NCBI GenBank assembly: GCA_007127095.1
Contig: SKZY01000249.1
Location: 1 to 33,918 of the forward strand
Reading direction: 5' to 3'
From: Planctomycetaceae bacterium
GTDB lineage: Bacteria; Planctomycetota; Planctomycetia; Pirellulales; Pirellulaceae
Length of the DNA stretch: 33,918 bases
Shown: in pieces, positions 20,454 to 31,581 of the stretch
How the letters are laid out: every line of letters begins with the position of its first letter
Position numbering within the stretch: the first letter of the stretch is position 1
Translations under genes and position numbers: made by a program
Notes under the pieces: model-generated
Database searches by the model: none
Seen by the model: the letters and a program-made list of their open reading frames with translations, nothing else
What the model was told of the DNA's origin: nothing

Positions 20454-23400
20454 TTGAATGCCGAGCCGCAGCGGATCGTTTCGATCCCGAGTATCGATTA
20501 TCCCGACGAGTTGCCGATCACGGCACACCGCGATGTCCTGCTGAAGCTGCTTGCTGAGCACCGTGTGTTGGTCGTTTGCGGAGAAACCGGCAGCGGCAAG
20601 AGCACGCAATTGCCGAAGCTCTGTTTGGAGGCGGGTTTGGGCCGGCGGGGGATGATCGGTCATACGCAACCGCGGCGGATGGCGGCCCGTAGCATCGCAG
20701 CGCGGTTGTCGGAGGAACTCGGGACGGTCGGGGACAGTCGCGTCGCCTACAAAATTCGCTTCGGTGACCAAACGTCGCGAGACACGCTGATCAAGCTGAT
20801 GACCGACGGGATCTTGTTGGCCGAGACGCAGTCCGATCGCGATCTGCGAGCCTACGACGCGCTGATCATCGACGAAGCGCATGAGCGGTCGTTGAACATC
20901 GATTTCTTGCTCGGCTATCTTCACGGGTTGGTCCGTCGGCGGCCGGAGTTTCGCCTGATCATCACGTCGGCGACGATCGACGCAGAACGGTTCGCGGAGC
21001 ACTTCGGTGAAGCCGGCGCGCCGGCACCGATCGTCACGGTCGAAGGACGTGGCTTTCCGGTCGAAACCCGTTACCTGCCGTGGACCGCGGTCGACCCTCA
21101 GGCGGAGGACGAAGCGGATCATTACGATTTGGCTCGCCATGTGATCGCCGGGATCGATGAGGTCTGCCGCGACGGCGGCGGTGACATCCTGGCGTTCCTG
21201 CCGACCGAACGCGATATCCGCGAGGTGTCGCACCGCACCGCGGGTCACTTCAAGCGGCTCGGATTGGCGAACCGGGTCGACGTGTTGCCGTTGTATGCCC
21301 GCTTACCACAGGGCGAACAGCAACGGATTTTTCATCCCGACGGGGGGCGTCGTCGAATCATCTTCGCAACCAATGTCGCCGAATCGTCGCTGACGGTGCC
21401 CGGGATCCGTTACGTTGTCGATTCAGGGACCGCTCGGATCAGCCGTTACAGCCCGCGGAGCCGGGTCCAGCGGTTACCGATCGAGCCTGTCAGCCGAGCC
21501 AGTTGCGACCAACGGGCGGGGCGCTGCGGGCGGATCGCCGCGGGCGTCTGCGTGCGGCTCTATTCACGCGACGATTACGAATCGCGGGACGCGTTCACGA
21601 CGCCGGAAATCCGCCGCACCAATCTGGCCGCGGTGATCTTGCAGACATTGAACCTGCGACTCGGCAGGATCGATCGATTTCCGCTGATCGACCCACCGCG
21701 TCCCGACTCGATCCGCCAGGGCTATCGCACGCTCCGCGAACTCGGGGCGGTCGACGATCGGGACGAATTGACGGAGATCGGTAGGCGGTTGGGGAGGATG
21801 CCGGTCGATCCGCGGGTCGGCCGGATGATTTTGGCGGCGGACGAGTTCGGGGTACTGCCCGAGGTGTTGGTAATCGCCGCCGCGATCGAGGTTCAGGACC
21901 CACGGGACCGACCGCCGGAACGTCGTGAGGCGGCCGACGAGGCGCACGCCAAGTTTCAACATCCCCGCAGCGATTTCCTGAGCTATTTGAAGTTGTGGCG
22001 GTTTTACCAACAACAGCGAGAGGCGGTCAGCCGCGGCAGGTTGGAGCGGATTTGTCGCAGCCATTTTCTGTCGCCACAGCGGATGCGGGAATGGTCGGAC
22101 GTCTACCGCCAATTACGTGGCTTGGCCGCGACGGTGGTCCGCCAGCGATCGATCGGACCGCCGCGATTCGACGAGGAGGATCAGGACCGGGTGGTCGATC
22201 AGGGACGTTATGCCACCATCCACCAAGCGCTGCTGACCGGCCTGCTGTCGGGTGTTGCTTTGGCGGGTGACAAGGGCGAGTACACCGGTGCCGGCGGATT
22301 GAAACTGTTTTTGTGGCCGGGCAGCGGCGTGTTTCAAGCCAAGCCGAAATGGATCATCGCCGGTGAGTTGGTCGAAACGACCAAGCAGTACGCCCGCACC
22401 GTCGCCGCGATTCAACCCGAGTGGATCGAGCCACTGGCCGAACATTTGGTCAAGCGTCAGCACAGTGATCCTCATTGGAGTCACAAATCGGGCGGGGCCT
22501 ATTGTTATCAGCAGGTTTCGCTGTTCGGGCTGCCGATCGTCTCGCGGCGAAGGTTGCCGCTGGCTTCGATCGACCCGGCGACGGCCCGTGAATTGATGAT
22601 CGACCAAGGCTTGATGGAAGACGTGATGCCGACGACGGCGCGGTTCGTGCGATTCAACCGTCGTTTGGTCGAATTGATCGGTGAATTGGCCGCCAAGACC
22701 CGCAGTCGGCAATTGGTGGTCGATCCCTATGCCGTGCGGAACTTCTACGCGTCACGATTGCCGGAACAGGTCTGCGATCGGGTGCGGTTGGAAAAGTATG
22801 ACCGTGGCACGGCGGTCCCGGCTTGGACCAAGACGTTGACCGACTCGGAAGCGGTGGCGAATTGGCTGCGATCACCGCCAGCGGCCGACGCCACGGAAGC
22901 GGGTGATGAGGGGAGCACCTCGGAATACCCGATCCCGTACATGCGGCCTGACGACCTGGTGCCGGTCGCCGAAACTCCGTTGTCGGCGGAGGCGTTTCCT
23001 GATGAATTGGTCGTTGGCGAGACGCGTCTGCCCTTGGAGTATCGATTCGAGCCGGGTGGGGAGCGAGATGGCGTTCGTTTGACGATGCACCGAGCGGCTT
23101 TGGCGCAGGTGAGTGACGAACGTCTCGGTTGGCTGGTCCCCGGGCTGCTCGAGGCGAAGCTGTTGGCGATGATCAAATCGTTACCGAAACGGATCCGTCG
23201 CAACTTGGTTCCGGCGGCCGATGTGGCCAAACGGGTCGCCGCCGAACTCGGCCCGGCCGAGGGTCAAGCGCCGTTCATGGCTACGGTTTGTGACTTGTTT
23301 TCGCGATTGGCGGAGGTTCCGATCGCGCCGTCTGATTTTTCCGCTGAAAAGTTGGAGCCGCATCTCGAGTTCTTGATTCGGGTGGTCGATGATCAGGGCG

Positions 23401-24374
23401 AAACGATCGCCGAGACCCGAGGCATCGATGAAGCACGTCGGCTGATCGGGGCGGAGTCGGCAGCGGAAGTCGAATCACCGAGCGAGCCCGACGAAGCCTG
23501 GACTCGCGCGGATATGAAGACCTTTGACATCGACCAGCTACCCGAGCAGGTGGTGCGGGTCCGGGGTGGTGTCAGGGTCGCTCAGTTTCCTGGCCTGGTC
23601 GATGCTGGCGACCATGCCGCGACACGTCTGTTCGCCGATTCGGCAGCGGCTTCGGCATCGACACGCCGCGGGCTGATGCGATTATTCGCGATCACTGAGC
23701 GGAAGGAGCTTCGCGCCCAAGTCCGGCACTTACCCAGTTTGGGCGACGCCAAACTGAGGCTCGCCCCGATCCTTCCGGCCGCGACGTTCGAGGACGCTTT
23801 GGTCGACCTGTTGGCCCGTCGCGCGTTTGTCGAAGCGACGCCGTTGGTCCGTTCGCGAGAGCAGTTCGAGTCGCTGCGGGGTGAGCGTGGCCGGCGGATC
23901 GGGGAAGCGGCTTGCGAGTTGGGGCCGTGGTTGCCGGCTTTCGCCGAGGCCTATCATGCCGCCCGGTGTCAGTGGGAATCGATCGGTCGGTCGGATCGCA
24001 GCGGGGCGATCGCCGATGTCGAAGCGCAGGTGGCTCGACTCGCTTTTCCCGGGTTCCTATCGACCGTCCCCTGGTCGTGGCTGCGACACTACCCTCGTTA
24101 TTTTTCAGCGATCGCTTATCGACTTGACAAACTGCGGAGCGGTACGGCGGGCAAGGATGCCGAATCGATGCGATTGGTCCAAGACCTGTTCAGCCGTTGG
24201 TTCGCCGGCCTGCCGGAGGCGCAGCGGACACCCGAGCAGTGTTGTGATGCCGAGTTGCGGTGGATGATCGAAGAATTGCGCGTCAGTCTGTTCGCTCAGC
24301 CACTTGGGACAAGCGTCAAGGTTTCGCCCAAGCGATGTGAAAAGCTACTCCAGGATACGAATGCACGACGGTGA
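20454..24374 (+). CDS. hrpA: ATP-dependent RNA helicase HrpA (DEAH box)
   Basis: About 1306 residues, the same size as E. coli HrpA. Superfamily 2 motifs are complete: I GETGSGKST (43-51), II DEAH (140-143), III SAT (172-174), and VI QRAGRCGR (353-360); 'FATNVAESSLTVPGI' is the typical motif V region. The helicase-associated domains follow to about 700, and the C-terminal half matches the HrpA-specific DUF3418-type extension. HrpA unwinds RNA or RNA-protein structures in the cytoplasm; in other bacteria it is linked to mRNA processing and rescue of stalled ribosomes. The start is a TTG at 20454, the only in-frame candidate before motif I, with no ribosome site; a nearby ATG at 20459 is out of frame. 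The 3' end overlaps the convergent lactonase gene by 30 bases. Confidence 0.93.
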   Translation: MNAEPQRIVSIPSIDYPDELPITAHRDVLLKLLAEHRVLVVCGETGSGKSTQLPKLCLEAGLGRRGMIGHTQPRRMAARSIAARLSEELGTVGDSRVAYKIRFGDQTSRDTLIKLMTDGILLAETQSDRDLRAYDALIIDEAHERSLNIDFLLGYLHGLVRRRPEFRLIITSATIDAERFAEHFGEAGAPAPIVTVEGRGFPVETRYLPWTAVDPQAEDEADHYDLARHVIAGIDEVCRDGGGDILAFLPTERDIREVSHRTAGHFKRLGLANRVDVLPLYARLPQGEQQRIFHPDGGRRRIIFATNVAESSLTVPGIRYVVDSGTARISRYSPRSRVQRLPIEPVSRASCDQRAGRCGRIAAGVCVRLYSRDDYESRDAFTTPEIRRTNLAAVILQTLNLRLGRIDRFPLIDPPRPDSIRQGYRTLRELGAVDDRDELTEIGRRLGRMPVDPRVGRMILAADEFGVLPEVLVIAAAIEVQDPRDRPPERREAADEAHAKFQHPRSDFLSYLKLWRFYQQQREAVSRGRLERICRSHFLSPQRMREWSDVYRQLRGLAATVVRQRSIGPPRFDEEDQDRVVDQGRYATIHQALLTGLLSGVALAGDKGEYTGAGGLKLFLWPGSGVFQAKPKWIIAGELVETTKQYARTVAAIQPEWIEPLAEHLVKRQHSDPHWSHKSGGAYCYQQVSLFGLPIVSRRRLPLASIDPATARELMIDQGLMEDVMPTTARFVRFNRRLVELIGELAAKTRSRQLVVDPYAVRNFYASRLPEQVCDRVRLEKYDRGTAVPAWTKTLTDSEAVANWLRSPPAADATEAGDEGSTSEYPIPYMRPDDLVPVAETPLSAEAFPDELVVGETRLPLEYRFEPGGERDGVRLTMHRAALAQVSDERLGWLVPGLLEAKLLAMIKSLPKRIRRNLVPAADVAKRVAAELGPAEGQAPFMATVCDLFSRLAEVPIAPSDFSAEKLEPHLEFLIRVVDDQGETIAETRGIDEARRLIGAESAAEVESPSEPDEAWTRADMKTFDIDQLPEQVVRVRGGVRVAQFPGLVDAGDHAATRLFADSAAASASTRRGLMRLFAITERKELRAQVRHLPSLGDAKLRLAPILPAATFEDALVDLLARRAFVEATPLVRSREQFESLRGERGRRIGEAACELGPWLPAFAEAYHAARCQWESIGRSDRSGAIADVEAQVARLAFPGFLSTVPWSWLRHYPRYFSAIAYRLDKLRSGTAGKDAESMRLVQDLFSRWFAGLPEAQRTPEQCCDAELRWMIEELRVSLFAQPLGTSVKVSPKRCEKLLQDTNARR

Positions 24375-25520
24375 CGGCATTTCGATCGGGTCCCCGGCTG
24401 ATTCGAGTCGTCCGTCGGCGGTGATGCGAAACACCGCCACGTTGTTTCCCGGCATGTTGGCACATAACAACCAGCGCCCGTCCTGGGTAATCGCCAAGTT
24501 TTGAGGGCCCCGACCGAGGCTGGCAGTAATCTCGATCGGCTCGAGCTTTCCTTGGGCTTCGATCCGGAACGCGGCGATGCTGTCGTGCCCGCGGTTGGTG
24601 CCGTAGAGGAATCGGCCGTCGGGAGTGACTTTGACGTCGGCTGTGTGGCTGGTGTCGGCGAAATCGGGTGGCAACGTATCGACGGAGTCACGTTCGATCA
24701 GCATCCCCGTCTCAGGGATCACGACGAAGCTGGTCAGAGTATTGCTCAGCTCGTTGATGACGTACAACTGCTGGCCGTCGGGGTGAAACGCCAAATGGCG
24801 TGGCCCACTTCCCGGAGCGGTGCGAACAAAGGGTTGGCGATTGGGGGAAAGTTCCGCGGTCGACGGATCGACGGCGTAGCAGAGGATGCGATCGATGCCC
24901 AAGTCGGCGGCGTAGGCGAAACGCCCGTCGGGGCTGAAGATGAAGCAATGGGCATGGGGCTGTTGTTGGCGTTTCGGATCGACGCTGGAGCCTTCGTGCT
25001 GGACGAAGGAAACCGGTTCGGACAACGAGCCATCGGGATCAATCCGGTACGACGCGACGCTGCCGCTGGAGTAATTGGCGACCAACAGCCGTTTGCCCTC
25101 GGAATCGGTTTCCAGGTAGCAGGACGCGGTCCCGCGGGTCGATCGCTGGCCGAGCGGTTCAAGTCTTCCGGAGCGATCGAGGATTCGGAAGGCGGCGACC
25201 AATTCAGGTTCGCTGCCGCCGAACGTCGGAGTGTCGATGGCGTAGAGAAACCGTTGGTCGGGCGAGACGGCGATAAAGAACGGGTTTTCGATCGCCGCTT
25301 CGCGATGCGTCGGCAGCAGGGTGCCTCGGGTCGTATCGAGTTCGAAGGCGTGAATCGCGCCCTCTTCGCCAGCGGTGAAGGCTGAAACGAAGACCAGTGG
25401 TGGAGCGGCTTCGGCCGCGGCTGGAACCGCCATGGTGGTCACCCAGATAAGCAGTGTGCAGGATAAAAATGACCGGCAGCGAGTGGTCCGAGCAGCCCTG
25501 ATAGGACTCGGTTCTGTCAT
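24345..25520 (-). CDS. Exported lactonase-family seven-bladed beta-propeller protein
   Basis: A 391-residue protein of the 6-phosphogluconolactonase (YbhE/Pgl-type, PF10282-like) beta-propeller family. Recurrent blade motifs are visible: 'ENPFFIAVSPDQRFLYAID', 'SDGKRLLVANYSSG'-type, 'PHAHCFIFSPDGRFAYAAD', 'GPRHLAFHPDGQQLYVINE', 'PDGRFLYGTNRGHDSI' and 'GPQNLAITQDGRWLLCAN'. The N-terminus has Arg residues, a hydrophobic stretch (about 17-35) and AAA-type cleavage sites, so it is probably exported, unlike the cytosolic sugar-phosphate enzyme. The substrate is therefore unknown. I chose ATG 25520 over a TTG at 25553. It reads towards hrpA and the two genes overlap tail to tail by 30 bases. Confidence 0.9.
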   Translation of the reverse strand: MTEPSPIRAARTTRCRSFLSCTLLIWVTTMAVPAAAEAAPPLVFVSAFTAGEEGAIHAFELDTTRGTLLPTHREAAIENPFFIAVSPDQRFLYAIDTPTFGGSEPELVAAFRILDRSGRLEPLGQRSTRGTASCYLETDSEGKRLLVANYSSGSVASYRIDPDGSLSEPVSFVQHEGSSVDPKRQQQPHAHCFIFSPDGRFAYAADLGIDRILCYAVDPSTAELSPNRQPFVRTAPGSGPRHLAFHPDGQQLYVINELSNTLTSFVVIPETGMLIERDSVDTLPPDFADTSHTADVKVTPDGRFLYGTNRGHDSIAAFRIEAQGKLEPIEITASLGRGPQNLAITQDGRWLLCANMPGNNVAVFRITADGRLESAGDPIEMPSPSCIRILE

Positions 25521-25658
25521 GGTCGTAAAACTCTTGGAGTCGGCAGTTATCAATGAACCGGGGCAAAAGCCTTGGGGCTGATTGTACTGAATGAAAGCGG
25601 GGCGGTTCGGTTGAGGGCGAGCGGATGGCGACGGGCGGGAGGGCTGTGCGGATGGGAA

Positions 25659-25686
25659 TTGACAATCGATTTGAGAGGCTTATCAT
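25659..25686 (+). promoter_or_regulatory. Sigma70-type promoter for the cimA leader
   Basis: TTGACA (25659-25664) is a perfect -35 hexamer; TATCAT (25681-25686) matches five of six -10 bases; the spacing is 16 bases. Transcription would start near 25693 and run into the leader and cimA. It is the best promoter match seen in the window. Confidence 0.6.
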
Positions 25687-25739
25687 TCGGAGCTCAGATT
25701 AGCCACCACCCGATCACTTCTTGTGTCCGACTGTCGCCG

Positions 25740-25799
25740 ATGCGTATCGCACTCCCTCGCGTACTGATTACCAACTCCGCTTTCCGGCGGCATACCTGA
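25740..25799 (+). CDS. Possible 19-residue leader peptide upstream of cimA
   Basis: A short open frame lies about 47 bases after the predicted transcription start: MRIALPRVLITNSAFRRHT. It has Ile, Leu, Val, Leu and Ile codons with a VLI run at residues 8-10, fitting branched-chain control, but the overall I/L/V content is ordinary. Its TGA stop lies two bases before the CGGGGGAT antiterminator element. There is no clear ribosome site, so translation is uncertain. Confidence 0.25.
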   Translation: MRIALPRVLITNSAFRRHT

Positions 25800-25942
25800 T
25801 CCGGGGGATAGGGTATTCGGTGGGTGGGAAAGCGGAGGCATTGATTCGGCAGCGACCCACCCGTTCAGACTTAGATCGATGGATCATTTCTGGACTGCCG
25901 CTGCGACGGTAGCTGGGGGGCGGCCCGATGTCGACCACCCGC

Positions 25943-25958
25943 TCGAAATCGATTTCGA
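25943..25958. repeat. Perfect 16-bp palindrome before the cimA terminator
   Basis: TCGAAATCGATTTCGA is identical to its reverse complement. It sits directly against the A-rich foot of the terminator hairpin. It could be an operator for a dimeric regulator; as RNA it cannot fold tightly because it has no loop. Confidence 0.5.
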
Positions 25959-26000
25959 AAAAATCCCCCGAGGTCATCCCCGCCTCGGGGGATTTTTTTT
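25958..26000 (+). terminator. Strong intrinsic terminator in the cimA leader
   Basis: A 10-bp GC-rich stem (TCCCCCGAGG with CCTCGGGGGA) extended by six A-T pairs surrounds a 9-base loop (25974-25982) and ends in eight T residues (25993-26000). The A run on the 5' side means it could also act on the other strand. No complete gene lies upstream on the plus strand, so it most probably ends the leader RNA from the promoter at 25659. Confidence 0.8.
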
Positions 26001-26058
26001 CGTCTGACACGGCATCGACGCCGTCATTCGTTTGCAGCCTCAAGAAAGCCGATATTTG

Positions 26059-27756
26059 ATGACTACGGAAACAGCCGCCTCGACCACCGATAGAACGGTC
26101 GAGATCTACGACACGACGTTGCGTGACGGGACGCAGGGTGAAGGGGTCAGTTTTTCGCTTCAAGACAAGCTCAACATCGCCCGCCGATTGGCGGAGATCG
26201 GGATCGATTTTATCGAAGGCGGTTACCCGCTTTCGAACGAGAAGGACGTCGCTTTTTTCCGCGATGTCCGCAAGCTCGATCTCGGCAAGAGTCAGGTTTG
26301 TGCTTTCGGTATGACGCGGCGAAGGTCGCTGAAGGTGGCCGACGACCCTGGCATGCAGGCGTTGGTGGCCGCCGAAACGCCGGTTGTGACGCTGGTCGGC
26401 AAGACCTGGGACTACCACGTCACCGAGGTTTTGAACGTCTCGCCGGACGAAAACCTCGACATGATCGGTGAGAGCACGGAGTTCTTGGCGCGACACGGTC
26501 GCGTGATCTACGACGCTGAGCACTTCTTCGACGGCTGGAAGGCGAATCCCGAGTATTCTGCCAAAACGCTGCAGGCGGCTGTCGCTGGCGGCGCGTCGCA
26601 CTTGGTGTTGTGCGATACCAACGGCGGATCGTTGCCCGAGGAGATCGCGGAATTGGTCCGCCAAGCCCGTGAGGCCGTCGCCGGGCACGACGTGACGATC
26701 GGGATCCACTGTCACAACGACAGCGATCTGGCGGTCGGAAATACGCTGGCCGCCGTCGATGCCGGCGCCGGGCAGGTTCAGGGAACGATCAACGGGATCG
26801 GTGAACGTTGTGGCAACGTCGACCTGATTTCGGTCCTAGCGAATTTAGGGCTGAAGAAACGCGGCTACCGTGTGCTCGGTGGCCGTTCTTTGGAACCGCT
26901 GACCGAATTGAGTCGGTTTGTTTATGAAACCGCAAATCTGCAGTGGCGAAATAACCAGCCGTTCGTTGGTCAAAGCGCGTTCGCCCACAAGGGCGGGATG
27001 CACGTGCATGCGATCAACAAGTCGTCGGGCACCTACGAGCACATCGAACCGGCGTCGGTTGGTAATGAACGGCGGATCTTGGTCAGTGAGTTGAGCGGAC
27101 GGAGCAACATTGCGGCGGTCACGTCGAAACACGATCTGGCCAACAACCGGGAATTGATGGACGCGATCCTGGGCGAAGTCGTGCGACTGGAGAACCAAGG
27201 ATATCAATTCGAATCGGCAGGGGCTTCGTTCGACCTGTTGGTCCGCAAGGTCGCGAATTCGTTTCGCGCCCACTTCAGTCCGATCAAGTACCGGGTCGTT
27301 GCCGGCGATCGGAATGTGGCGGGGCACAGCGTATTCGCGGAGGCGATCATCAAGCTGAAAGTTGGTGACCGGCTCTGTTTCGACGCGGCCGAGGGGCATG
27401 GGCCGGTCAACGCATTGGATGCAGCACTGCGAAAAACGTTGGAGGGCGTCTATCCGTCGCTTTCCGAAATGCGATTGATCGATTACAAGGTTCGCGTCGT
27501 CGATTCGGGTGGCGGGACCGCCGCTTCGATTCGGGTCAACATCGAAAGCGGTGATCAACATGAGACCTGGGGTACGATCGGCGTCAGCGAAAACGTGATC
27601 GAGGCGAGTTGGCAGGCGTTGGTCGACGCGGTCGAGTACAAACTTCATCAGGACGAAGCGAAACGGGGCGAACCCGGCGGTGCGATGAACCGACCCGCGG
27701 TCGCCGGTGTCATCGCTGGCGTGGAGGCCCCCGCAAGCAGAGGATCGAAATCATGA
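26059..27756 (+). CDS. cimA: (R)-citramalate synthase, isoleucine biosynthesis
   Basis: A 565-residue enzyme of the 2-isopropylmalate/citramalate synthase family. CimA condenses pyruvate and acetyl-CoA to citramalate, giving 2-oxobutanoate for isoleucine without threonine deaminase. The N-terminal TIM barrel shows 'DTTLRDGTQGEG' (R22, D23, Q26) and the metal-binding HCH motif at 217-219 in 'GIHCHNDSDLAVGN', then 'GTINGIGERCGN'. The C-terminal LeuA-type regulatory domain lies at about 430-545, as expected for feedback inhibition. The very similar sequence before Walker-free 'GFGMTRRR'-type segment and the TLRDGTQ-EGV variant favour CimA over LeuA. I chose ATG 26059; a TTG at 26032 is less likely. 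The stop overlaps the valS start as ATGA. The leader upstream carries a putative attenuator. Confidence 0.9.
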   Translation: MTTETAASTTDRTVEIYDTTLRDGTQGEGVSFSLQDKLNIARRLAEIGIDFIEGGYPLSNEKDVAFFRDVRKLDLGKSQVCAFGMTRRRSLKVADDPGMQALVAAETPVVTLVGKTWDYHVTEVLNVSPDENLDMIGESTEFLARHGRVIYDAEHFFDGWKANPEYSAKTLQAAVAGGASHLVLCDTNGGSLPEEIAELVRQAREAVAGHDVTIGIHCHNDSDLAVGNTLAAVDAGAGQVQGTINGIGERCGNVDLISVLANLGLKKRGYRVLGGRSLEPLTELSRFVYETANLQWRNNQPFVGQSAFAHKGGMHVHAINKSSGTYEHIEPASVGNERRILVSELSGRSNIAAVTSKHDLANNRELMDAILGEVVRLENQGYQFESAGASFDLLVRKVANSFRAHFSPIKYRVVAGDRNVAGHSVFAEAIIKLKVGDRLCFDAAEGHGPVNALDAALRKTLEGVYPSLSEMRLIDYKVRVVDSGGGTAASIRVNIESGDQHETWGTIGVSENVIEASWQALVDAVEYKLHQDEAKRGEPGGAMNRPAVAGVIAGVEAPASRGSKS

Positions 27757-30700
27757 GTACGACCGATTCGTCCGATTCGGCAGATTGCCCCGAGGCGACC
27801 GATTCGTCCGAGCAGGCGATTCCGAACCGTTTCGATTTCGCCACCGCCGCCGAGCGAATTCAAGCGGCCTGGGATCAGGCCGGTACTTGGCGAGCTACGG
27901 TCAATCCGGATCGCAAGCCGTTTACGATCGTGATCCCGCCGCCCAACGTGACCGGGGCACTGCACCTCGGTCATGGGCTGAATAACACGTTGCAAGACGT
28001 CTTGGTCCGTACCCGTCGGATGCAGGGGTTTGAAGCGTTGTGGATGCCGGGCACCGATCACGCCGGGATCGCGACCCAGGCGGTCGTCGAACGCCGGCTC
28101 AAGGAGCAGGAGAACAAAACCCGTCATGACCTCGGTCGTGAAGCGTTGGTCGACCGGATTTGGCAATGGAAACAGCAGTACGAAGCCCGCATCCTCGGCC
28201 AGTTGAAGCGGATGGGGTGCAGCTGCGATTGGGATCGTACCCGTTTCACGCTCGACCAACGCTGTGCCGCGGCTGTCCGGGCGACCTTTTATGATCTGTT
28301 TCAAAAGCGGCTGATCTACCGCGGTAAACGGTTGGTCAATTGGGACACCTTCTTGCAGACCGCGGTCAGCGACGACGAGGTGTTCAACGAGACCGTCAAA
28401 GGGCATTTCTGGCATATTCGATACCGTGTGATCGAGCCGCAGGCGGGTGAACCGACCGAAGTCGAGATCGCCACCACACGTCCCGAAACGATGTTGGGTG
28501 ATACCGCCGTGGCGGTCCATCCCGACCCGGCGGCGGCCTTCGATTCGCTGATCGACCAGGCGACCGAGAAACTCGCCGCGGCGACCGACAAGGATCGGGC
28601 CGGTTTGCAGGGCCAACTCGACGCTTTGGTCGCTCGTCGTGACCAGATGTTGCCGTCTTTGACGCGGTTGCGCGATATGGCGTTGGACGGTCGGATGGTG
28701 ATGTTGCCGCTGGTCGATCGTCCGATCCCCTTGGTAGCCGATCTGTGGGCCAAGCCCGAGATGGGCAGCGGTTGCGTCAAGATCACTCCGGCACACGACC
28801 CGAATGACTACGAAGTCGGGCTACGGTGTGGGTTGCCGATGATCAACATCCTGTCAGCCGACGGCACGCTGAACGCTGCCGCAGGGCGTTATGAGGGGCT
28901 GACGATCAAGCAGGCTCGAACCAAGGTCGTCGACGACCTGGAGGCGATCGGACTGCTCGGCGACATCGAGGACCGTGAGATCGAATTGCCGCACAGCGAC
29001 CGCAGCAAGACACCGATCGAACCGCTGTTGGCTGATCAATGGTTCGTCAAGATGGATTCGTTGGCCCAATCGGCGATGGATGCGGTGTCGACCGAGTCGG
29101 TGAAGATTTTTCCGACCCGCTATCGCAAGGGTTATCTCGATTGGCTGGGTGAGAAACGAGATTGGCCGGTCAGCCGACAATTGTGGTGGGGCCACCAGAT
29201 TCCGATCTGGTCGAGCGAGGCGATCGGTGCGGCCGAAGCGAAAGAATTGGCCGATCGACTCGATGGGTTGGGTGCCGACGCCGATGCGTTGACGCATCAG
29301 ACCGAATCCGATGAAGCGGGTAATCGACAGGTCTTCGTCTGTTTGCGCAAAGAGGATGCCAAACTGCAAGAGGCGGTCGAAGCCCTCGGGATGACCCGCG
29401 ACCCCGACGTACTCGACACCTGGTTTTCGTCGGCCCTGTGGCCTCATAGCACCCTCGGTTGGCCGGAGCCTTCCGCCGACCTCGACTATTTTTATCCGAC
29501 CAGCACACTGATCACGTCCCGCGACATCATCACACTATGGGTCGCCCGGATGGTGTTGATGGGGCTGAACAACACCGGCAAAGTCCCCTTCGACGAAGTC
29601 TTCATCCACCCCAAGATACTCGACGGTCTCGGCGAGACGATGAGCAAGTCGAAGGGGAACGGCGTCGACCCGATCGATATCATCGAAAAGTTTGGTCCCG
29701 ACGCGATGCGGTTCGCGCTCGCCTGGCTGGCGACCGAGACCCAAGACGTGCGGATGCCGGTGCAGTATGAATGCCCCCATTGCGGAAAGCTGATCGACCA
29801 AACCAAAAAGAACCGCAGCCTGCCGAAAGTGCCCTGCAAGGGTTGTGGTAAGTCGTTTTCCACGCAGTGGGCCGAAACCGAGGAAGATCGTGCGTTGCCT
29901 CGCGGCGCGGTGGTCAGCGAACGGTTTGAGACCGCCCGCAACTTCGTCAACAAGCTTTGGAACGCCGCTCGGTTTACCCTACTGAACCTCGACGATTTTC
30001 GACCGACACCGATCGACCGGTCGAACCTGCCCTTGGAAGATCGCTGGTTGCTCAGCCGCTTGGCGACGGTAACCGCCGAAGTGACCGAGTCGCTCGATCA
30101 CTATCGTTTCGCCGAAGCGGCGCGGGTGTTGTACGATTTCGCCTGGGACGAGTTTTGCAGCCTGTACGTCGAAATGGCGAAGGCTCGGCTGGCTGACCCC
30201 GACGCCCGCGGGGCGACGCAATCGATCATCGCCCATGCACTCGATACGCTGTTGCGGCTGTTGCACCCGTTCATGCCGTTCGTCACCGAGGAGATCTGGG
30301 GCCATTTGGCCACCGTCGCCCCGGTCCGAGGGCTCGCCGCCGATGCCGAAGCGGAGCCGGCCGGCCGCTTTGTGATGCTGGCCGCCTGGCCGAAGGTGTT
30401 CCCGGGTGATGTCGGCGACGGCCAGATCGAGCGTCAGTTCGAAGTTTTCCGGGAAGTCCTGGGTGGCATCCGGCGGATTCGCAGTAGCCAGAACATCGCG
30501 CCGCGGGAAACCGTGCCGGTCGCGGTCCGCTGCGATGCGGCGACCGAGGCCTTGTTGGCGCCGATGAAGGTCTTACTCGAATCGCTGGCCGGTGCCGACG
30601 TGATCACGCTCGGTCCGAACGCCGAGCCGTTCGCTACCGATGCTCCCCTGTCGATTCCGGCTTTCGACGTCGAGTTGCACGTCGACCTGGAACGATTCAT

Positions 30701-30917
30701 CGACGTCGACGCCGAACTGCAGCGGCTGGAGAGACTGTTGGGTCAGATCGTTAAGCAGATCACCGGCAAGCGACAGAAGTTGAGCAATGAGAACTTTGTC
30801 AGCCGGGCTCCCGAGCAGGTCGTCGCCCAGGAACGTCAGTCGCTGGAGGAACTCGAGCGACAGCAGCAGGGGATCGACGCCGACATTGCCAAGTTAAAAC
30901 AACGGGTCGACGGATAG
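27753..30917 (+). CDS. valS: Valyl-tRNA synthetase with an inserted zinc ribbon
   Basis: A 1054-residue class I synthetase that charges tRNA-Val in the cytoplasm. Signatures: HLGH (71-74) in 'PPNVTGALHLGHG', 'WMPGTDHAGIATQ', an editing domain with 'TTRPETMLGDTAVAVHP', 'DWPVSRQLWWGHQIPIW', and MSKSK at 630-634, where the usual first Lys of KMSKS is Thr. After the catalytic core an extra segment holds C674-x2-C677-x17-C695-x2-C698, a zinc-ribbon pattern absent at this place in E. coli ValRS; the anticodon-binding domain then begins at 'NFVNKLWNAARF'. The C-terminus (about 970-1050) is the usual ValRS coiled-coil arm. The ATG overlaps the cimA stop by four bases and AGAGGA lies 8 bases upstream, so the genes are probably co-translated. 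Confidence 0.97.
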   Translation: MSTTDSSDSADCPEATDSSEQAIPNRFDFATAAERIQAAWDQAGTWRATVNPDRKPFTIVIPPPNVTGALHLGHGLNNTLQDVLVRTRRMQGFEALWMPGTDHAGIATQAVVERRLKEQENKTRHDLGREALVDRIWQWKQQYEARILGQLKRMGCSCDWDRTRFTLDQRCAAAVRATFYDLFQKRLIYRGKRLVNWDTFLQTAVSDDEVFNETVKGHFWHIRYRVIEPQAGEPTEVEIATTRPETMLGDTAVAVHPDPAAAFDSLIDQATEKLAAATDKDRAGLQGQLDALVARRDQMLPSLTRLRDMALDGRMVMLPLVDRPIPLVADLWAKPEMGSGCVKITPAHDPNDYEVGLRCGLPMINILSADGTLNAAAGRYEGLTIKQARTKVVDDLEAIGLLGDIEDREIELPHSDRSKTPIEPLLADQWFVKMDSLAQSAMDAVSTESVKIFPTRYRKGYLDWLGEKRDWPVSRQLWWGHQIPIWSSEAIGAAEAKELADRLDGLGADADALTHQTESDEAGNRQVFVCLRKEDAKLQEAVEALGMTRDPDVLDTWFSSALWPHSTLGWPEPSADLDYFYPTSTLITSRDIITLWVARMVLMGLNNTGKVPFDEVFIHPKILDGLGETMSKSKGNGVDPIDIIEKFGPDAMRFALAWLATETQDVRMPVQYECPHCGKLIDQTKKNRSLPKVPCKGCGKSFSTQWAETEEDRALPRGAVVSERFETARNFVNKLWNAARFTLLNLDDFRPTPIDRSNLPLEDRWLLSRLATVTAEVTESLDHYRFAEAARVLYDFAWDEFCSLYVEMAKARLADPDARGATQSIIAHALDTLLRLLHPFMPFVTEEIWGHLATVAPVRGLAADAEAEPAGRFVMLAAWPKVFPGDVGDGQIERQFEVFREVLGGIRRIRSSQNIAPRETVPVAVRCDAATEALLAPMKVLLESLAGADVITLGPNAEPFATDAPLSIPAFDVELHVDLERFIDVDAELQRLERLLGQIVKQITGKRQKLSNENFVSRAPEQVVAQERQSLEELERQQQGIDADIAKLKQRVDG

Positions 30918-30930
30918 GAGTGACGACGCG

Positions 30931-31581
30931 ATGGATTTTACCGCGATCGATTTTGAGACGGCGAATCATGGCCGCCACAGCGCCTGCCAGTTGGCGGCCG
31001 TGAAAGTCCGAGGAGGGCAGATTGTCGACCAGCATTGCTGGCTGATCCGGCCGCGTCCGTTCGACTTCAGCCCGATGAATATCGCCGTCCACGGGATTCG
31101 GCCCGAAGCGGTTGCCGGGGAACCCGAGTTCGGTCAGTGCTGGTCATCGATCTTTCCGCAATTGGACGGTGAATGCTTGATCGCGCACAACGCCCCGTTC
31201 GACATCGGTGTGCTTCGAGCCTGTTTGCAGTTCCACGAATTACCGATCCCCGAATTGCAGTTTTCCTGCACTCGGCTGATCTCGCGAAACGCCTGGCCGG
31301 GCCGCGATGGTTATGGGCTGAAGCCGTTGGCGAGTTGGCTGGGAGTCCGCTTTCGCCACCATGACGCCTTGGAAGATTCGATCGCCTGCGCGAAAATCTT
31401 GTTGGCCGCAGCCGAATCGACGAACACCAAATCGATCGAAGCCTTGGAAGAGCGACTATCGCTGCGCCGCGGAACGGCCGGCGAGTGGGGTTACCGCGGA
31501 GCCAAGGCCGCACCGCCGAAGCGGCGTGCGGCCCGCAAGCCGCCGCTGACGAGCGTACGCTTGTCGCTGCCGCCACAATGA
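30931..31581 (+). CDS. DEDDh 3'-5' exonuclease (DnaQ/epsilon-like)
   Basis: A 216-residue protein with a full DEDDh exonuclease fold. Exo I is 'AIDFETA' (D7, E9), Exo II is 'AHNAPFD' (D91), Exo III is 'HDALED' (H144, D149). These residues bind two metal ions for 3'-5' hydrolysis of DNA or RNA. Residues after about 165 form a Lys/Arg/Ala-rich tail that may bind nucleic acid. It is too short and lacks the alpha-binding tail to be called polymerase III epsilon with confidence. It starts 13 bases after valS; AGGAG overlaps the valS stop codon, 10 bases before the ATG, so it is the third gene of the cimA-valS operon. Substrate unknown. Confidence 0.9.
   Translation: MDFTAIDFETANHGRHSACQLAAVKVRGGQIVDQHCWLIRPRPFDFSPMNIAVHGIRPEAVAGEPEFGQCWSSIFPQLDGECLIAHNAPFDIGVLRACLQFHELPIPELQFSCTRLISRNAWPGRDGYGLKPLASWLGVRFRHHDALEDSIACAKILLAAAESTNTKSIEALEERLSLRRGTAGEWGYRGAKAAPPKRRAARKPPLTSVRLSLPPQ

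Follow-up and report, generated by a model that had tools for sequence, protein, structure and literature searches.

What is the function of a transcription terminator that precedes a biosynthetic gene when the neighboring gene is transcribed away from it? This question is raised by the cimA gene of a Planctomycetaceae bacterium, in a stretch of 33,918 nucleotides (contig SKZY01000249.1, positions 1-33,918) that is called the window. The adjacent upstream gene (24345-25553, minus strand) encodes a 6-phosphogluconolactonase-like beta-propeller protein and points away from cimA, so the terminator can end only a plus-strand transcript of intergenic or far-upstream origin. An earlier note on this DNA proposed an attenuator. 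Comparative evidence indicates that the region is very probably a transcription attenuator of the classical, ribosome-mediated type, which would respond to the charging of tRNA-Ile and control cimA and usually valS too. Leader translation, stalling, and regulated read-through are what we infer from this evidence.

Anatomy of the cimA leader

Direct reading found a promoter, a 19-codon open reading frame (ORF), an element after its stop codon, a terminator, and the complementarity between the last two, all at the positions claimed in the earlier note (Table 1). Codons 8-10 of the ORF read V-L-I, and the AUU codon lies 5 bases 5' of strand 1. The 11 bases of strand 1 pair with a downstream arm to form a protecting hairpin whose loop buries CGGGGGAU, and within this loop the element folds as AUCC-GGG-GGAU. 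The leader stop is 2 bases 5' of strand 2, and CGGGGGAT is the exact complement of ATCCCCCG (25963-25970) within strand 3, 153 bases downstream. The last T residue of the terminator is 58 bases from the cimA start codon.

Table 1. Features of the cimA leader and of the genes that follow it, in window coordinates
Feature	Coordinates	Strand	Remarks
Promoter TTGACA - 16 nt - TATCAT	25659-25686	+	Hexamers 25659-25664 and 25681-25686; 11/12 matches
Leader ORF MRIALPRVLITNSAFRRHT, 19 codons	25740-25799	+	ATG 25740; TGA 25797-25799
AUU (Ile), putative control codon, codon 10	25767-25769	+	Conserved in 5/5 genus genomes
Strand 1 CUCCGCUUUCC, 5' arm of protecting hairpin	25775-25785	+	Equal fold in four genus genomes
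Strand 2 CGGGGGAU (DNA CGGGGGAT), putative antiterminator element	25802-25809	+	Invariant within genus
GGAAAGCGGAG, 3' arm of protecting hairpin	25827-25837	+	Genus alignment; folding
Strand 3, 5' arm of terminator	25958-25973	+	Direct reading; genus alignment
Strand 4, 3' arm of terminator and T8	25983-26000	+	Kept in the four genus genomes covering the region; 25983-25998 pairs with strand 3 (16-bp stem); T8 is 25993-26000
cimA, citramalate synthase	26059-27756	+	TIGR00977, 640 bits (cut-off, 450)
valS, valyl-tRNA synthetase	27753-30917	+	NF004349 and TIGR00422, above cut-off
DnaQ-family 3'-5' exonuclease	30931-31581	+	Third gene, 13 bases after valS

The predicted structures are more stable than expected for the whole window leader (z = -3.5), for the protecting hairpin (z = -3.6 to -4.9 across four genomes of the genus), and for the terminator at 25958-26000 (z = -5.75). 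We estimate that chance alone would give an 8-base complement in roughly 2% of cases, and the Ile/Val score of the leader ORF is not significant against shuffled sequences (P = 0.17, for whichever frame scored highest). The absence of a ribosome site, a weak point already raised in the earlier note, is real: no Shine-Dalgarno sequence precedes the leader ORF. A leader peptide that likewise lacks a ribosome-binding site is known from ilvBNC of Corynebacterium glutamicum (Morbach et al. 2000, as cited in PMC10272879). The window by itself is insufficient to establish an attenuator, and the case depends on relatives.

Farther upstream, a large HrpA-type DEAH helicase (20454-24374, plus strand; TIGR01967, 1305 bits) is encoded convergently with the lactonase-like gene, and the two genes overlap by about 30 bases.

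Proposed mechanism and folding

The leader has the components of trp- and ilv-type attenuators, namely a codon-matched ORF, a terminator, a mutually exclusive antiterminator, a protecting hairpin, and a stop codon near strand 2. In the proposed mechanism, RNA polymerase would initiate near 25693, the predicted transcription start, and a ribosome would translate the 19-codon leader. When Ile-tRNA is plentiful, the ribosome would reach the stop codon and cover CGGGGGAU, and strands 3 and 4 would then pair and terminate transcription before cimA. When Ile-tRNA is scarce, a ribosome stalled at the AUU codon would open the protecting hairpin at strand 1 and free strand 2, which could pair with strand 3 while strand 4 has yet to be transcribed, so that polymerase continues into cimA and valS. 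If no ribosome is present, the protecting hairpin would sequester strand 2, and termination would be the default.

Folding of the window leader as far as strand 3 gives numbers of pairs between strands 2 and 3 that are consistent with this scheme. The expected number is 0.46 pairs with no ribosome, rises to 6.0 when a ribosome occupies the AUU codon (modeled by masking the RNA to 25781), and falls to 0.0 when it occupies the stop codon. When the window leader is folded at equilibrium, the full terminator is always dominant, which means that the switch has to operate kinetically. In strand 3, the free GAGG could serve as a toehold through which the pairing of strands 2 and 3 is displaced. A simulation of ribosome positions over all loci was discarded, because a control with swapped terminator arms was equally significant.

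The dominance of this very stable terminator is also what would be expected of an ordinary terminator that reduces constitutive expression without sensing any amino acid, and the nonsignificant ORF score in the window alone points the same way. However, the divergent upstream gene would leave such a terminator only the leader's own transcript to end, and the ORF, its codon, and the competing strand are conserved, with specificity for isoleucine across genera. We regard this reading as highly improbable, and it is the least probable of those considered.

Conservation within the genus

A DNA search located one cimA-linked site per genome in all five available genomes of the genus. Four of the five could be aligned over the leader; the contig of the fifth, G128, ends 5' of the terminator. 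In all four aligned genomes, the leader ATG and GATTACC are kept, as are the protecting hairpin and the motifs ATCCGGGGGATAGGGT and ATCCCCCGAGG...CGGGGGATTTTT, and the sequence between these elements has diverged. G128 retains an in-frame 19-codon ORF and CGGGGGAT, so that the ORF, its AUU, the protecting hairpin, and the element are found in all five genomes and the terminator in four. Promoter hexamers identical to those of the window, with the same 16-nt spacing and at the equivalent position in the alignment, occur at two loci (L002 and L003), and G128 has TTGACA-N16-TAAGAT located farther upstream.

The leader peptides of the genus, translated by eye, are MRIALPRVLITNSAFRRHT, MRVHHPIASITGSAFRRQT, MYPILPIVLITGSVFRQQT, MRFVLPVVLITGSVFRQQT (G128), and MLPCHFFSRITGSAFRQQTQSGG, in which the stop has moved into strand 2. 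In G088, the usual leader stop is absent and the ORF ends within strand 2, which makes this genome the exception to the rule that a ribosome at the stop covers strand 2. The only invariant branched-chain codon in these peptides is AUU, and the G088 leader has no Val codon. Of the V-L-I run pointed out in the earlier note, the single isoleucine codon is thus the conserved putative sensor, and the run as a whole is not. The ordinary isoleucine, leucine, and valine content that the earlier note counted as a weak point is likewise real in this genus, as regards its low isoleucine, yet it is exceptional among relatives.

Because the arrangement of ORF and complement is conserved across the genus, it is beyond chance. 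The earlier note had staked its interpretation on conservation of the ORF and the pairing in relatives; this comparison was made, and the attenuator interpretation withstood it. Within the genus, the short ORF is kept together with each of the two alternative pairings, and other genera show an equivalent design built from different sequences.

Approximately 78 nt around CGGGGGAU are much more conserved than their flanks within the genus and have a stable fold. These are properties that might be expected of an aptamer, either a riboswitch or a protein-binding leader, in which a ligand chooses between the protecting hairpin and the antiterminator and the short ORF is incidental. Searches with Rfam models argue against an aptamer of a known class. 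No family reached its gathering cut-off in the window, where low-threshold matches to leader families sit on the terminator hairpin and were rejected; 20 related loci contained no leader family, but only a tRNA; and the T-box model (RF00230) has no match in the window genome. The genus-specific core GGGGGATAGGGT was also sought in relatives and is present in this genus only, so sequence search alone would miss the system elsewhere.

Isoleucine-rich leaders in Pirellulaceae

Distinct cimA upstream regions from Pirellulaceae were scanned for strong terminators between -320 and +60, and one is present at 100 of 139; in the remaining approximately 30%, the scan detected no strong terminator. For every terminator, the best preceding short ORF was tested for enrichment in all twenty amino acids in turn, with dinucleotide-shuffled sequences as the background. 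Enrichment is found for isoleucine at 66 of the 100 terminators, for valine at 27, for glycine at 10, and for each other amino acid at 8 or fewer, counts that should be read with the caution that automatic ORF picking is wrong in the window and probably at some other loci, and that loci partly overlap between collections. Terminators elsewhere in the loci examined served as a control, and an Ile-rich ORF precedes 3 of 219 of these.

Isoleucine codons in the leaders are also shifted toward one kind. ATT accounts for 256 of 341 (75%), as compared with 746 of 3100 (24%) in the bodies of cimA genes (P = 3e-77), and the leaders counted were selected for isoleucine content and not for a particular isoleucine codon. 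The window cimA itself uses 3 ATT and 24 ATC codons. An aptamer would leave this codon shift unexplained, as it would the change to leucine at leuA that is described below, and other genera retain an Ile-rich ORF without the sequence that is conserved in the window genus. We therefore consider an aptamer very unlikely.

A sister group has the layout ATT-ATT-xxC-CGC-GTC ... TGA-CGCGGGGG, in which a hairpin formed by CCGCGTC and GACGCGG lies over the end of the ORF. In the alignment of this hairpin, 97% of cells are paired and two pairs have changed on both sides; its sequence is unlike that of the window genus. At 19 loci, TGA or TAA is found directly 5' of CGCGGGG, with one extra codon intervening in two.

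Competition between the antiterminator and the terminator was examined across loci, with the automatic ORF choice at locus L001 corrected by hand. Strand 2 pairs better with its own terminator arm than with swapped arms, and none of 5000 permutations was as good. The own-arm pairing gives z = -4.6 on 56 dereplicated loci, from which relatedness has been only partly removed. When strand 2 is instead compared with its own shuffled versions, the signal is weak, with 31 of 90 loci below z = -1.5. The long separation of the competing strands, put at about 150 bases when it was first noted as a weak point, makes the window spacer an outlier (approximately 160 nt, against a cluster near 30 nt). Distances from leader stop to terminator arm at cimA fall into a large class of 29-33 nt and a second class near 70-90 nt, with the window genus near 125-160 nt.

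Leader amino acid and gene context

The leuA genes of the same genomes provide a comparison. A terminator precedes leuA at 25 of 30 loci, and the leader is Leu-rich in 20 of these 25. The window genome has such a leader upstream of its own leuA (G000:C281, L295), with the sequence MSRLQNLLPLLLLLPQPGCSG... No matching leader signal was found at ilvB or trpE, where a terminator of any kind occurs at 9 of 30 and 1 of 30 loci, respectively. Judged from sequence, the leader amino acid tracks the pathway, with isoleucine and then valine at cimA and leucine at leuA. No ilvA model scored above its cut-off in the window genome, which is approximately 96% complete; this agrees with isoleucine synthesis starting from cimA.

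Outside the family, a terminator is found at 14 of 39 planctomycete cimA upstream regions, and in 13 of these 14 the leader is rich in isoleucine, as in MNIQNIIISIIINIGGD and MTNTLIIIGRIII. Leaders rich in Ile, or in Ile and Val, thus reach into other classes of planctomycetes. The pattern differs in the order to which a named Gemmatales genome belongs, in which a terminator is present at 29 of 30 cimA upstream regions and valine is enriched in 17 of the 29 leaders and isoleucine in 10. A peptide core like AAQGVRxVVV recurs in these leaders (L340-L369; genome of L094). The replacement of isoleucine by runs of valine suggests that the sensed amino acid has changed in this order or that both are sensed.

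A related variant of the preferred explanation is that valine is sensed with isoleucine, or instead of it, in keeping with the presence of valS in the operon. Its rank as the second-enriched amino acid at cimA terminators and the commonest in the Gemmatales order favors valine, but a valine sensor is at odds with the invariant AUU of the window genus and with the G088 leader. We consider this variant unlikely, and isoleucine remains the preferred signal at the window locus.

The proposed operon of cimA, valS, and an exonuclease gene is in part general. The valS start overlaps the cimA stop (ATGA), valS gives one match per genome and is a single-copy gene in the window genome, and no promoter-like sites were found between 27300 and 32000 of the window. 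Within the examined flank of cimA, valS is present on the same strand at 75 of 104 loci, mostly as the adjacent gene and at a distance of approximately 250 bases or less, and cimA-valS is thus a conserved unit. The exonuclease gene follows valS in the genus-mates G038 and G088 and is absent from that position in two other genera (G028 and G055), so it belongs to the unit in this genus only.

Relation to known systems and implications

The enterobacterial ilv attenuators and the Corynebacterium ilvBNC leader (ilvB-II motif, PMC10272879) likewise comprise an ORF with branched-chain codons, an antiterminator, and a terminator. In contrast to these, the target here is cimA, with valS, and not ilvB; the phylum is different; the window genus has a single conserved AUU; and there is no similarity to Rfam leader families. 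Leader-peptide attenuators of Actinobacteria (PMC1262725) and Proteobacteria resemble the planctomycete leaders, including those of leuA, in that the leader amino acid corresponds to the pathway, whereas here leuA and cimA of one genome each have a leader of their own, the two differing in amino acid, and no Rfam model matches. T-box riboswitches, too, would make a tRNA synthetase gene responsive to the charging of tRNA through a terminator and an antiterminator, but the proposed sensor here is a translated ORF, and no T-box model matches in the genome.

Short ORFs upstream of planctomycete genes were described by Korolev et al. 2016 (PMC4833913), whose leader genes lie approximately 10-13 bp from the gene and were proposed to aid reinitiation. 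That paper distinguishes its leader genes from attenuation and mentions neither cimA, leuA, nor isoleucine. Planctomycete leader-peptide attenuation was not found in the open literature searched; a broad comparative survey by Lopatovskaya et al. 2010 (cited in PMC4833913) may contain an earlier prediction. The mechanism is known; the phylum and the target, cimA, appear to be new as far as the searched literature goes.

It seems likely that attenuation of cimA, often together with a single valS, and of leuA extends throughout the phylum and includes the Gemmatales order. Such attenuation needs a ribosome close behind RNA polymerase, and thus predicts that transcription and translation are coupled. 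A separation of the two processes has been suggested in Gemmata obscuriglobus (Gottshall et al. 2014, as cited in PMC5287468 and PMC5394234). Conserved attenuators in the Gemmatales order would be hard to square with a complete separation of the two processes where these transcripts are concerned, and they offer a simple genetic test of coupling. If the window attenuator is real, isoleucine controls a tRNA synthetase gene, valS, that is present in a single copy. The leaders also flag short, putatively translated ORFs that are likely to have been overlooked by annotation.

Leaderless transcription was considered as a general rule for these ORFs and was not supported, as only 6 of 43 promoter-bearing leaders start 4-12 nt past the -10 box. 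The ATG of the leuA leader in the window genome lies a few bases past a TACCTT box, and its transcript may be leaderless.
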